Below are positions 1 to 6,073 of a stretch of 8,568 bases of DNA, piece by piece. The notes under the pieces were generated by a model, which worked only from the letters and a program-made list of their open reading frames with translations, was not told the DNA's origin and searched no databases. Source of the stretch: Candidatus Auribacterota bacterium. Its GTDB lineage: Bacteria > Auribacterota > JAFGBW01. The position numbers and the translations under genes are program-made. Position 1 is the first letter of the stretch. Each line of letters opens with the position of its first letter. The stretch spans positions 1 to 8,568 of the forward strand of contig JAFGBW010000030.1 of the NCBI GenBank assembly GCA_016932965.1, read 5' to 3'.

Positions 1-660
1 GAGGCTCAGGATTGCTTCAAGAGAGTGAATGATGTAGCCGGACTCGGACAAGTGAGTCTCGCGCAGGGTAATTATTCGGCAGCCAAGAAAATTTTTAGTC
101 AGACCGAAGAATATTCCGGGATAGCTTTGACTTATCTGGCAGACAATGATTTTGAAAATGCGGAAAAATATTTCATCAAAGCGGGAGATTATTTCGGGCT
201 GGGTCTGACTTTTTTTGCAAAGGGTGATTTTGACTCAGCCAAAAAAATCTTTTCAAGTTCACATAATAAGACGGTTCAGGGCATTGTGTTTTTAATGGAA
301 AATCATTTGGAAAGTGCAAAGAGAATATTTGAAAAACTGAAGGATCATAATCTGCTGGCTGCCTCTTATCGGGCGTTGGGAGATTTGGACAAGGCGCTGG
401 AAATTTATACGACCAATAATAACATGAAACAGGCGGCAAGGGTGTTACTGGAGGACGGGAAACTGCAGATGGCTTATGAATTATTCATGAAAAATGAGGA
501 TGAATTGGGTGTCGCCGATCTTTATTACCGTCTGGGTGATTATGAACGGGCCTATGAGCATTATGACAAGAATCATGCTTACAGCCGGGCTTTTATGTCA
601 TTAATGGGTTTAGGGAATATGCAGCGGGCTTTGCGATATGGGGATCAGATTCTGAATAAA
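1..660 (+). repeat. Array of 26-residue (78-bp) TPR-like helical repeats
   Basis: Bases 37-660 encode eight contiguous units of exactly 26 residues with no insertion or deletion, and bases 1-36 encode the last 12 residues of a preceding unit. Each unit follows a pattern with a small residue at position 4 (Gly/Ala, Phe only in the last), Gly or Asn at 11, Asp/Asn/His/Lys at 12, a hydrophobic residue at 13, Ala at 16 in all eight, and Phe/Tyr at 20 (Gly in the last). This matches the central part of a TPR hairpin but is eight residues shorter than the standard 34. It resembles the short solenoid repeats of coat/IFT-type proteins. The repeats are visible in protein, not as near-identical DNA, so they are old. 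Confidence 0.85.
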
Positions 661-1728
661 TATCCTGATCAAACTGATATTGAATGGCTGATGGTTGAGA
701 CGCTGCGTCTAACACGGGAATATAGAAAGGCGGAAGAACGCATCAAGCGTTTGCGTTCGCTTTCTTTTTATAAGAATAAACTCAATATTTTAGAGAGCCG
801 GCTGGATCTGAGCAGGGAAAAGCCTAATACATTGACACGCCTTCTGCAGGAAGCGGTCAATGAATCGGGACTCAGCTTTTTAACCGCTGAAATCATTAAA
901 GGTGCCCGGGCTCGCGGCTTGACTTTGATCTCTCCGACAGCAAAAAGCGTGGATATTCTGACGAAACAAAAAACGCCTTATACCATTATCAAGTTGATCT
1001 TAGGCATTTTCGCCGGATCCTGGGTCCTCTTCTGGCTGGTTTTGTATTACAAAAAGCAGCGGTCAAAACCTCCTGAACTGGAGGATCTTCATTTGAGTTA
1101 CGGAGAGGTCTCGGAGTCGCATAAAAATATTTATCAGGACCGTACGGCGTTGCGTTTGTCTACTTTGTCGAAATTAAAAGGAAAAAGCGAACAGGAGACG
1201 ACTCCGGCGACTAAAAAAACCACGCCGGCCAGGTTGAGAACTCCGACTCCTGCTACGCCTTCACCGTCCCTGGGGGCGTCTTTAGTCGGGACCGAATCTG
1301 GTCATGTAACCCCCGCCGGTACTCCACAGGGTGAAGGAGGTTTGAAGAAGCTCGAGGATAAAATGATCTGCATGGGCTTTCAAGTTCTGCAGATCGCTTT
1401 AATGAAATTGGGGATTACTTCTTCAGCCATTGAATTGATTGAGCTGTCCGGGGAGGATTTCAATCGATTGACTGTTTATGGGATTTATCTTGCCGCGAGG
1501 GCGAAAGGGGCGCAAGTCCAGGGGATCAAGGTTGATTTCTCCTATCTTCTTGAGCCTACAAAAGGGATTCATCTGGTTTTTTTTAATGATGAGAGTTTTG
1601 CCATGTTGAATTCGATTTCAGGAGTTGAGATTGAATTAACTCATGGGCTGAATCAGGTGAAGAAGATATCCCGTGAAGAATTCATGATCAATTGGAACGG
1701 TTATATCATCACATTAACAAAAATATAA
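1..1728 (+). CDS. Membrane-anchored TPR-like solenoid protein with degenerate C39-like peptidase domain (5' partial)
   Basis: The reading frame is open to the first base. The GTG at 25 falls inside a repeat unit whose earlier half is encoded by bases 1-36, so the true start lies outside the window. Numbering from that GTG: residues 5-212 are eight 26-residue helix-turn-helix repeats, and 213-246 look like one more TPR-type hairpin or cap. Residues 321-342 form a single hydrophobic transmembrane helix, followed by KKQR. Residues 389-439 are a Pro/Thr/Ser-rich linker. Residues 445-567 resemble the peptidase C39 fold: MGFQVL sits where CGPAAL is expected, followed by a helix ending LGI, a GIHLVFF strand that keeps the His (516), and a final ISREEF...W.G segment. 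The catalytic Cys position is Met450 (Cys449 is one residue early) and the oxyanion Gln is missing, so proteolysis is unlikely. A binding or scaffold role for the RHS protein encoded 16 bases downstream is inference. Topology is ambiguous because both sides of the helix are basic. Confidence 0.85.
   Translation, partial: EAQDCFKRVNDVAGLGQVSLAQGNYSAAKKIFSQTEEYSGIALTYLADNDFENAEKYFIKAGDYFGLGLTFFAKGDFDSAKKIFSSSHNKTVQGIVFLMENHLESAKRIFEKLKDHNLLAASYRALGDLDKALEIYTTNNNMKQAARVLLEDGKLQMAYELFMKNEDELGVADLYYRLGDYERAYEHYDKNHAYSRAFMSLMGLGNMQRALRYGDQILNKYPDQTDIEWLMVETLRLTREYRKAEERIKRLRSLSFYKNKLNILESRLDLSREKPNTLTRLLQEAVNESGLSFLTAEIIKGARARGLTLISPTAKSVDILTKQKTPYTIIKLILGIFAGSWVLFWLVLYYKKQRSKPPELEDLHLSYGEVSESHKNIYQDRTALRLSTLSKLKGKSEQETTPATKKTTPARLRTPTPATPSPSLGASLVGTESGHVTPAGTPQGEGGLKKLEDKMICMGFQVLQIALMKLGITSSAIELIELSGEDFNRLTVYGIYLAARAKGAQVQGIKVDFSYLLEPTKGIHLVFFNDESFAMLNSISGVEIELTHGLNQVKKISREEFMINWNGYIITLTKI
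1357..1725 (+). other. Degenerate peptidase C39-like domain (pseudo-peptidase)
   Basis: This is the C-terminal ~123 residues of the solenoid protein. The order of elements fits the C39 family: N-terminal helix, a middle LSGEDFNRLTVYGIYLAARA region equivalent to the ELxxLxGTxxxGTSLxGLxxAAxxLG region of C39, a strand with the catalytic His (GIHLVFF, His516), and a C-terminal SREEF-x-x-x-W-x-G strand. The nucleophile position is Met, and no Gln is found about six residues before it. C39-like domains without Cys are known in some ABC exporters, where they bind substrate instead of cutting it. The assignment rests on reading the motif pattern by eye. Confidence 0.7.
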
Positions 1729-1733
1729 CGAAC

Positions 1734-1747
1734 GGGAACCGATTTTG
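1734..1747 (+). promoter_or_regulatory. Weak ribosome binding site and TTG start of the RHS gene
   Basis: The frame is closed upstream by a stop at 1715-1717 and holds no ATG or GTG before the hydrophobic N-terminal segment. TTG at 1745 is the only sensible start that keeps the basic n-region (MEKRK) and the membrane helix. A short GGGA at 1734-1737, seven bases upstream, is the best Shine-Dalgarno candidate and is weak. The next in-frame Met lies far inside the N-terminal region, after the helix. Coupling to translation of the upstream gene, which ends at 1728, is plausible. Confidence 0.5.
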
Positions 1748-4700
1748 GAAAAGAGGAAGATCAGTTATACTTTGATCATTTTGCTGGTGACGATTCTGGC
1801 TATCCGTGTTGTCGTAGTCAGGACCTTGAAACCCTCGCTTGGACTGGACGCAGTCTATTTGCAAACGGTGGATTTATTTTCAAAATTGAAGAGTCGACCT
1901 GTTCCTTCCATTTTCAATTATTCGATTGATCCGTTTTTGGATTTAAAAGGGTGGCATAAGGATCTGAATGCGAAAGATACCGGATCCGGTTTTTATTTGT
2001 TTTCCGGGAAGATGTTATTATGGGAACGGGATTATTCCGTCTTTCCTGAGGGAAAAAATGCCGTCCCCAATCCCCTTTCTTTCGGCCGCTTATATGATTC
2101 CAGTCAATGTGATTTGAGATGGCCGCTGGGTTATGGCTGGAATCTGTTTTGGAATATTGAGCTTTCCTATGTCAATGATATTTATGTATTCCGGATTCCG
2201 GGAAAGGATCTGGTGGGCTTTAAATTTGACGCAAAGGAGAATCATTATATTCCTTTACGCAACAATGAACTGATCTATAAAATGAATGTAACGGGGAACA
2301 GCATCGAGCTGGTGGATTCTTTGAATCAACAAACTTTTTTCTTCATGAAGTCTGAAAAGGATCCCCAATTCCTTCTCGAGTCGATCATACATTCCAATGG
2401 GATCAAATACCATCTTTCCAGAAATAAGGAAACCAATGAAGTGGACGCTATCATGGAAGAGGGAACGGACCGTAAAACAACGTATGTCTATGATCCGGGA
2501 ACCCATTTAATGACTGCTGTTATTTTTCCTTCCGGTTATAAGCTCAGCATGAATTATGATCCGAATTTGAATTTAATCAAAGTTGAGAACGGAGAAAATT
2601 ATCAGCGTAGTTACGCTTATACGGATTCTTCGCATTATCATTTATTGACGGGACAGGGAACGGAAGAGGTGGAGATGACATTTGATTATTTTAATCAACA
2701 GCTCATCAGGATTGATTATGGAGAGATGGGCTCCGTTTCCATCGAGAGGGATTTATTGCTGGGTATTTGTCAGGTCAGGATGCTGAACGGAGGGGTGTTC
2801 AAATATGGTAATTTAGGGGATTCCCTTCTCACTATAGAGGGCCCGCTTGATTATAAAATCAGGATTTTTTATGATGAAAAGGGACTGCCCATAAAACTGA
2901 TTGATGCCCAGAATCTCACCATGCAGTATTCCTGGAATCAGCAGGGGAAATTGATTCAAAGAGAAGACAGAAAGGATGGTGTAGAGACTTTTGACTATGA
3001 CCAGAATCAGCATCTGACTGCTTACGTTAATCATCTTGGTCATGTAACAAAAATGTCATATGAAGAAGGGCTTTTATCCCGTTTCATTACACCGGAAAAT
3101 GAGGTCCTTAAATTTACCTATAAAGGAAAATTGCTTGAATCTTTGTATTGTGAAACCAATAAAAGCACCATTCGTTATCAACATGATGAGAAGGGTAATT
3201 TGAGTGTTTTTGAACGCGAGAACGGCGATAAATTTCAATACAGGTATAACAAAGACGGTTATCTGACTGAGAAGATCAGTCCCAACGGCTGGAAGGAGAG
3301 TTATGAATGGAGAGGGCCTTATTTGTTTGCCGTTTATTATAAAGAGATGGGAGTGGGTAAAAAGAAGCATGAAGAATACGAATACAATTCATCTGGGCAG
3401 TTGATCTCGAAGAAAAACGAGAAAAATCAAAAGACATATTATTCTTATTATTCCATGAATCGGGTGAATGCCATCACATTTCCAACGGGCACGAAAAGAA
3501 CCTACTCATGGACGTCTGACGGGCTTCTAAAGACCTTGAAAAAGGAAAACGGACAGACGATTTCAATGCAGTACGATTTGTTGAACCGTCTGAATGAGTT
3601 GTCCAAGAATGACGCCGTGATATTCAGATTGCAATACGATAAAGGTTCTGGAATAGAAATCAAACCTTTTGGGGATGCCTTTTCCAGTCTGACTGAGCCG
3701 AGCGGCCGGAAGTTGGAATTGAGTTATGATAAAAATTACTGGATTCAGGAGGTCCGATGTTCCGACGGGAACAACTGTTCGTACGAATACAATTCTGATG
3801 GGGATATCATTTCAAAGACGGAATCGTCTCGAAGTAAAATCATGTACGCCTATGATAGAAATCGTCATCTGGAAGCGATTTATAATAACGAATCCGGTAA
3901 GGTATTTCTTTATCAACATGACTGGCGTGGTCTTTTACGTTCCGCAACGGATGAATCATCCCGGACTTCGATGATTCTGTATGATGTGGTTGGAAGACCT
4001 GTGGGGATTCGGAAAGGATTACAGCCTCCGTTCATATCATGGAAATGGGATCGCGAGTTCAACCTGTGTCATATTTATTCTCATCAGACCGGCAGGGGAC
4101 GGGATTTGTCATACAACGGAAAGAATTGGAACGTGGGGATAAATGATTCCATGAATGGCATGATGGAATATGGGTATAATCTTGATGGGAAAAAGGAATC
4201 GCAGATTGATTTGGATGGGAAAATGATCAAATATGATTACTCGGATTATGCTCAACTGAAAGAAAAAAATCTCATTGATTCCAAGCTGAGTTACAACTGG
4301 ACCTACGATTTATATGGAAGGCCAAAGACCTTTTCAGGACCAGGGTCGTGTCAATACACCTGGAACGATCAGGGGAAACTCATGAAGCTGACTTTTGATA
4401 AAAAAAATATTCTTTTATTGGCCTATAATGAAGCGGGACTGCTTGTGAAGAAAACTTATCCCGGTCTTCTGAATCAGTTGATCAAATACGATGAAAAAGG
4501 AAATTTGATCAGTATTTCTGAAAACGATTTAGAGCCGGTTCAATATGAGTATGATCAAATAGGCAGGATTTCTCAGATACGATATCCCAATAAGATCAAT
4601 ACAACGTATGAATACGACAGTGAAAACCGGGTGAAGGAAATCACCTCCCTCGACGGCAACGGTAAACTCGTTTTTAAACGGGGGTATGCTTATGAAGAGG

Positions 4701-6073
4701 GAAACCGGGTTACGGAAGCCGTGACGGAAAGAGGAAAAATCACATTGAAATACAACAGCGAGGGGGATCTCCTTTCCGGTTCCTATGATGATAATTATAA
4801 TTCTTTTTTTACTTATACCTATAACCATCACCGCCGGATCGAATCCGTTCAGAAGAAGGATTCCAAAGGGGAAAGGTCATTCCGTTATATTTATGATGAT
4901 CAAAGCGGTCTATTGATCAAAGTGATAGATAACAGCAGGACTGATTCCGGAGAAAATAAAAAGCTGCAAATGGATTTGTATGGAACAATCAAGGACGATG
5001 TAGGATTTTTGGAAGTGAATAAACAGGTTGTTCAGATATCGGATAAGGAATTCAGCATTAAAAATGTTTTGCTTTCATCTGGAATCAACAACATCTCTAT
5101 CCGTTCCATCAGTCCCATGGGCAGGGAGCATAATTATTCATTTGATTTATCATATGATCCGTCCGCCTATCTCACGAATCATTATGACAAAATGGGGAGA
5201 TTGACTTTTCAAAGCCGCTCCGGCAGGCATATGAGTTATCAATACAATGATGACGGTTATTTGGAGAAAGTCATATATCTATTAGATGGAAGAATTCACA
5301 CAACGGATTATTCCTATTATCCTAACGATCTTCTTTTCCTGAAGGACATTCATGGCCCAGGTGCAGAATTTCAAGAAGAAAAGGTCCAATTCGTCTTCGA
5401 TGAACAGAATAATATCATCGGTGAATTGATTTATCAGGGATCAGGGTATAAGAATCTTTATATGTTCTCTCCCCGGGGAGAGATTGTTTATCGTATTGAT
5501 CGCGGACACAAGAAATATTACTACCATCTGGACAAGGACGGTTCGGTCATAGGGATCACGGATCATTTGGGGCAGGTTGTTTGTTCCTACTCTTACGATC
5601 CTTTTGGCGAGGTCATGCATAAACACGAGACGATTTCCAATCCTTTTCTGTATTTGGGGCACTATTATGATGCGGATTCAGGCTTTTATTTCTACAAAGG
5701 TTTCATAGGGAACCCGGAGCAGCATGCGTCTTATTTTAACCGGTCTGACCAGAAGGAATATTTCGGCGCACCTGAGGAAGTCTTCTCGAAGTATTTCTCC
5801 GTTTATTTTGAAGACTATCCTTCCCGTGTGACGCCGTCTTCATTTATCCCTTCAACATGCCTGGTTTCATCAAGAGAAAAAATTGACGTTTCGCCTCAAG
5901 AGCTGCTTAAACCGGATTTTTGGTACTCTAGGGTTGAACCGAATTTCGGCTGGAAAAGCGGAGTTTCTTCTTTCGCGTTTTCATGTTATCAGCGATTTGA
6001 AGAATTGTCTTTTCCAATGAATATTGATATTTCCATTCCGGATAATGAGATTGAAACTTGGAAATATCGCTGA
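1745..6073 (+). CDS. RHS/YD-repeat protein with N-terminal membrane anchor or signal
   Basis: The protein has 1442 residues. Residues 2-5 are basic and 8-25 hydrophobic with one Arg, fitting a signal anchor or uncleaved export signal. Residues ~70-240 match the RHS opening region (WPLGYGWN at 126-133 is the typical G.GW signature). From ~250 to 1059 there are about thirty YD-type units of the form Y.YD..G.L. or variants such as [12 protein letters not shown]. Residues 1074-1139 are an Ig-like insert, followed by four more YD-type units. The RHS core end is at ~1254-1320: [22 protein letters not shown] and [14 protein letters not shown]. The usual RxYDPxxGRF.S.DP junction is reduced to GFIGNPEQ...FNRSDQ (1320-1336). 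The last ~106 residues match no toxin I recognise. RHS/YD repeats build a hollow beta-cocoon that encloses cargo or mediates surface contacts. The gene lies 16 bases after the C39-like protein, probably in one operon, and its 3' end overlaps the convergent epimerase gene. Confidence 0.9.
4964..5161 (+). other. Ig-like (beta-sandwich) insert within the RHS protein
   Basis: Residues ~1074-1139 break the YD pattern. They read as a typical small beta-sandwich of the type G.v.D..g...V.vng..v.v....F....v.L..G.N.I.v.a.s..G, here [19 protein letters not shown], then [20 protein letters not shown], then [16 protein letters not shown]. Such domains are common in bacterial surface proteins and occur inside some RHS proteins just before the final core. 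The role is unknown; adhesion or a spacer is possible. Confidence 0.65.
5928..6073. other. 146-bp tail-to-tail overlap of RHS and epimerase genes
   Basis: The plus-strand RHS frame stops with TGA at 6071-6073, and the minus-strand epimerase frame stops with TAG at 5930-5928. The shared segment codes RHS residues ~1395-1442 and epimerase residues ~318-365. On the epimerase side, residues up to ~347 ([13 protein letters not shown]) follow the family's usual C-terminus, while the last 18 residues are a basic, unmatched tail. No T-rich hairpin terminator is visible in or near the overlap for either transcript. Confidence 0.8.

Follow-up and report, generated by a model that had tools for sequence, protein, structure and literature searches.

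The window, a stretch of 8,568 nucleotides, is contig C47 read from its first base, in an assembly of 3.1 Mb and 300 contigs. Two neighbouring genes lie on its + strand. Gene 1 occupies positions 1-1728, with its 5' end cut by the contig start, and is followed by an RHS/YD-repeat gene (1745-6073) whose start codon, TTG at 1745, lies 16 bases beyond the gene 1 stop. Facing this pair on the - strand are genes for an epimerase, a phosphate transporter of the PHO4 type and a PhoU-like protein. Related loci were searched for in 44 genomes of the phylum Auribacterota, three of them from the order of the window, and in 384 relatives across the domain.

Gene 1 encodes a TPR-like alpha-solenoid of 26-residue helical hairpins (1-870, its 5' end lying outside the window), a transmembrane helix (985-1041; hydropathy 2.19 over 19 residues) with KKQRSK shortly after it, a low-complexity linker of ~105 residues rich in Thr, Pro and Lys (1042-1356; AlphaFold2 pLDDT <50) and a C39-like domain (1357-1725). 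No ABC transporter part is found in the frame, which consists of solenoid, transmembrane helix and C39 domain only; the join by a membrane helix and a flexible linker is thus as given in the preliminary description of this DNA. The end of contig C100 overlaps the first 303 bases of the window with 281/303 identical positions (93%) and supplies the start of gene 1 (MAKIINYLLLFLVIVVGG) together with an N-terminal membrane helix. Gene 1 therefore probably begins on C100, with a full length of about 662 aa; the overlap falls short of full identity, so C100 may be either a close copy or a strain variant. Within the overlap, the two copies of gene 1 show 21 silent codon differences versus one that changes an amino acid, which points to selection on the protein. 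A 3684-aa frame on C100, considered as a giant gene, was ruled out as an artefact of masked N bases. The complete homologues (L025, L030 and L040) are laid out alike, with an N-terminal helix, the solenoid, a second helix and the C39 domain.

Concerning the solenoid, Pfam TPR models match above their cut-offs, and sequence autocorrelation gives z = 9.8 at lag 26 and z = 8.4 at lag 52, but z = -2.2 at lag 34. In the AlphaFold2 model, helices start every 13 residues, with a pLDDT of about 80-95 over residues 1-250; residues 1-293 of the model match TPR/PPR solenoids with Z up to 18.1, at rmsd values from about 3 to >13 A, many of them high. The solenoid is thus TPR-like, as first described, but with an unusually short hairpin of 26 residues instead of 34. 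The period of 26 residues is also found in relatives that lack the C39 domain (z up to 22.6) and is weak in the second subgroup of C39-bearing proteins (L030 and L039; z about 2). A strict bihelical repeat of this length is present in L024, L026, L027, L028, L029 and the window (1-870), with a maximum of ~15 units in L024. A literature search returned no family of 26-residue repeats matching the solenoid.

The C-terminal domain of gene 1 has the C39 fold according to sequence and profile searches, in agreement with its first description. Peptidase_C39 (PF03412) scores 34-38 bits over residues 459-574 of 575 (cut-off 22), and the domain taken alone scores 38.4 bits (E 1.3e-9). The same model is above cut-off in two of the five proteins that combine a solenoid with a C39 domain (the window and L025). 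The best match of a profile built from the five homologues is the C39 domain of PCAT1 (E 9.5e-5), and next come the dead C39-like domain of HlyB (E 0.07) and ComA; with the three most divergent homologues alone, the HlyB domain is listed at a non-significant E of 0.57. These three match the subgroup of the window with a profile probability of 94%, and a profile-profile comparison of the whole family with active C39 peptidases gives 84%. The C39-like domains of the homologues are 21-42% identical to that of the window. A single-sequence AlphaFold2 model of the C39 part reached a pLDDT of 40 and was discarded.

All three catalytic positions are substituted in the window. The catalytic Cys column contains Met (codon 1372-1374), and no Cys is found there in the other four proteins (PCAT1, active-peptidase and MAFFT alignments). 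The Gln expected six residues before this position is absent from the domain in the alignments to PCAT1 and active peptidases; both losses had been read correctly at the outset. The His described as kept, on the other hand, is not the catalytic one: the His at 1570-1572 (in GIHLVFF) lies eight residues ahead of the catalytic His column, which contains Ser in the window (1594-1596) and His in none of the five proteins (phmmer, MAFFT and hhalign alignments). One alternative alignment shifts the column slightly later, and no His is found there either. The catalytic Asp column contains His (1642-1644). Judged from these alignments, the domain looks catalytically dead in all five members. Profile scans of genome and viral contigs with a two-row C39 alignment returned no relatives. 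A weak match in G308 (L045) was rejected, as it is a separate small protein with a Cys aligned to the catalytic Cys and does not have the solenoid-C39 architecture.

Among solved structures, the best profile matches to the domain are the C39 domains of PCAT1, ComA and LahT, which cleave double-glycine leaders with Cys, His and Asp intact, whereas the domain of the window has lost all three residues. The catalytic Cys is also replaced, within a C39 fold, in the C39-like domain of HlyB, a type 1 secretion ABC transporter (PDB 3ZUA). In HlyB this dead domain captures unfolded cargo and keeps it tethered (PMC6363468, PMC8277102). Both domains are expected to be cytoplasmic, and each goes with a large exported partner (over 50 kDa). 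The HlyB domain, however, keeps its His (H83) and a Trp six residues earlier (W77) (PMC8277102), whereas the domain of the window has Ser and Val, respectively, at the corresponding positions. It is also C-terminal, behind a second membrane helix, and is not fused to an ABC transporter; its partner is an RHS protein, which is probably Sec-dependent. With no ABC part and neither the conserved His nor the Trp, the gene 1 domain is by its sequence not a member of the HlyB type. C39 domains are also combined with TPR-type helical repeats in PA2778-type proteins (NF033920), and look-alikes of these occur in a sister genome of the order, on contigs C38 and C39 (L041:2450-3635 and L042:2309-3533). 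There the C39 and TPR proteins are encoded by separate genes, the C39 proteins keep Cys and His and have an apparent signal peptide, and no RHS gene is directly adjacent. These C39 and TPR genes are located on the same contigs as solenoid-RHS pairs without a C39 domain.

The RHS protein (1745-6073, 1442 aa) contains tandem YD repeats above curated cut-offs (PF05593, 137 bits; TIGR01643, 86.9 bits). It begins with a basic N-terminal tail and a hydrophobic helix (1772-1828; hydropathy 2.6), with no convincing signal-peptidase site by eye; it is thus membrane-anchored, one of the two alternatives (anchored or exported) first described. An Ig-like, Glucodextran_B-like insert lies between the YD repeats (4967-5134); the match to PF09136 is below cut-off (18.9 bits) and covers positions 18-74 of 83, so that the first strand of the model is missing. 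The RHS-associated core (its DPxG part) is incomplete, with only the first half present (5594-5698; TIGR03696 positions 1-34 of 76, 18.0 bits against a cut-off of 32.5). RHS/YD proteins are often studied as toxin carriers. The YD repeats of the window resemble those of Rhs toxins, TcC and teneurin shells; unlike these, its protein has an N-terminal anchor, an incomplete core and no recognisable C-terminal toxin. The last 146 bases of the gene (5928-6073, ~48 codons) are antisense to the 3' end of the epimerase gene, which is CDP-tyvelose-2-epimerase-like, and the tail is therefore unlikely to be a conserved effector. The C-terminus may be read-through and not a conserved tail. A toxin reading was rejected on these grounds, together with the lack of a known domain in this region.

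Proteins combining the solenoid with a C39 domain are encoded by five genes in three genomes of one Auribacterota order; none was found in the other 41 Auribacterota genomes, nor outside the order among the 384 relatives. In all five loci an RHS gene follows, its start lying -4 to +16 nt from the stop of the solenoid-C39 gene, so the proposed pairing holds at every locus, although the five loci come from three genomes and are related, and the count does not represent five independent events. The neighbourhood is wider than the two-gene module first suggested. A LamG-type gene lies upstream in all three loci whose upstream gene is readable (L025, L030 and L040; the LamG match in L030 is below the Pfam cut-off); the contig ends at L039, and the DNA upstream of the window is masked. 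Where the start is visible (L040), the LamG-type protein has a signal peptide. The two genes might be no more than operon neighbours, sharing regulation and a secretion route with no interaction between their products. Adjacency alone is no proof of interaction, yet nothing speaks directly for mere neighbourhood, which we consider improbable: the pairing is kept across families whose proteins are about 20-45% identical, and the domain content of the partners co-varies. The RHS partners of the second C39 subgroup (L039:1097-4693 and L040:4072-7635) are about 20-25% identical to the RHS protein of the window and have few recognisable YD repeats, which suggests, from sequence comparison, that the RHS shell evolves fast.

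The same genomes also contain solenoid genes without the second helix and the C39 domain, again followed by an RHS gene (L024, L026, L027, L028 and L029). Since solenoids lacking C39 also precede RHS genes, the element constantly paired with RHS is the solenoid. The two types of locus differ in their RHS proteins. Partners of the C39-bearing proteins form one side of a branch with 100/100 support, carry N-terminal anchors in which no signal-peptidase site is obvious, and give 16-22 bits or no match with the RHS core model; they have lost the second half of the core. Inspection by eye suggests a cleavable signal peptide or a lipobox in the C39-less partners, of which the two complete ones score 59 and 90 bits with the core model, above cut-off. 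Three traits thus co-vary in two neighbouring genes. This is the strongest argument for a link between the C39 domain and the way in which the RHS protein is anchored in the membrane, although the co-variation may reflect a single ancestral event. A further difference concerns a membrane family 2 glycosyltransferase gene, which lies beside the solenoid-RHS pair in C39-less loci (L024:6810-8540, L027:5639-7321 and L028:4573-6279), whereas the readable C39-type loci lack it. Outside the order, no solenoid-RHS pair was found beside this glycosyltransferase among the readable matches.

Solenoid and RHS protein thus form the core of the arrangement, with the dead C39 domain as an extra that goes with one RHS subtype. 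This qualifies the proposal that pseudo-peptidase and solenoid together recruit the RHS protein: the solenoid is the constant partner, whereas recruitment by the C39 domain is only half supported, given the pairs that lack it. The solenoid could even act by itself, binding the RHS and LamG proteins in the periplasm, while the dead C39 domain would have no peptide ligand and be either a structural remnant or a dimerisation cap. The C39-less pairs fit such a role, as do the strong divergence of the C39 sequences (21-42% identity to that of the window) and the loss of the catalytic Cys and His. A pure remnant is harder to reconcile with the second helix and the C39 domain being kept in all members of both divergent subgroups, and with the domain going together with a specific RHS type, and we regard this explanation as rather unlikely, if the most serious of the alternatives.

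The topology bears on what the C39 domain could contact. Basic residues follow soon after the second helix in all five proteins (KK, KR or RR in four, DKK in L025). Judged from hydropathy and the positive-inside rule only, the gene 1 protein would cross the membrane twice, so that its solenoid lies outside and its dead C39 domain on the cytoplasmic side. The idea that the C39 domain displays the RHS cocoon is at odds with this charge distribution, which puts domain and shell on opposite sides of the membrane. With a cytoplasmic C39 domain and the shell across the membrane, contact would be limited to the cytoplasmic tail of the RHS protein or to a chain that is not yet secreted.

The reading we prefer, with a probability of roughly 0.45, is that the double-spanning solenoid protein is a constant RHS scaffold, with the dead C39 domain as a cytoplasmic dock, in an envelope operon of the LamG-solenoid-RHS type. 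The window would then represent the middle and last part of such an operon, the usual order being LamG-type gene, double-spanning solenoid gene and RHS gene. From a cytoplasmic N-terminus, the gene 1 protein would place its solenoid outside the inner membrane and return through the second helix to the C39 domain in the cytoplasm. The solenoid would be a constant partner of the RHS protein, or its scaffold. The dead C39 domain would be an accessory, restricted to loci whose RHS protein is anchored through an N-terminal helix that is apparently not cleaved off. By analogy with the HlyB domain and its cargo, the most likely role of the C39 domain would be that of a peptide-binding dock, for either the short basic cytoplasmic tail of the RHS protein or the emerging RHS or LamG chain, which would be kept beside the solenoid; as the His and Trp of the HlyB type are not kept, the mode of binding may differ. 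The outer solenoid would hold the RHS shell or the LamG tail, and the complex would assemble at the inner membrane. The bitopic layout with its flexible cytoplasmic linker would also suit a transmembrane sensor, in which the outer solenoid and the RHS shell detect a ligand and the pseudo-peptidase signals to a cytoplasmic partner. A gene for an FHA sensor kinase does follow the RHS gene at G001 C44 and at its counterpart, G002 C42, but no such gene lies directly after the RHS gene in the window, L039 or L040, and the gene 1 protein carries no fused kinase or other known signalling domain; we give a sensor little credence.

A joining of C39-like domains with RHS or TPR proteins in the manner of gene 1 was not found in the open literature; in the papers cited, dead C39 domains are parts of ABC exporters only, where they recruit cargo. 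If the scaffold-and-dock reading is true, a conserved use outside ABC transporters, coupled to a single type of RHS shell, would make C39 a portable peptide-docking module, and RHS/YD proteins would gain a membrane-anchored structural role with a dedicated partner. It is a doubtful further step that a dead C39 domain moved from ABC exporters to a double-spanning solenoid protein, where it now provides cytoplasmic docking in a dedicated and probably Sec-linked system that assembles LamG adhesins and membrane-anchored RHS shells. C39-bearing and C39-less solenoid-RHS pairs form a natural contrast, which makes the role of the domain directly testable.

Some features of the neighbourhood are shared by part of the loci. 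In two genomes, a gene for an FHA-domain sensor kinase and one for a small TPR/membrane protein lie 3' of the RHS gene (L025:13043-15144 and L079:113-2459), and the sensor-kinase neighbourhood is conserved for that orthologue group (G001 C44, with its counterpart in G002 C42). The proteins encoded upstream of the solenoid (L025:1-7029, L030:4884-5882, L040:9126-12866, L027:4769-5635 and L082:9131-9997) share a type of C-terminal end; their genes directly adjoin the solenoid gene except in L027 and L082, where a glycosyltransferase gene lies in between. In sequence (SP....V/I.G.R or SPIDGAVVTGKPEITE), these C-termini resemble strand 1 of an Ig-like domain. The Ig-like insert of the RHS partners lacks its first strand, and the tails of the upstream proteins seem to end in one; strand exchange, or binding of the C-terminal tail of the upstream protein by the solenoid, is possible.
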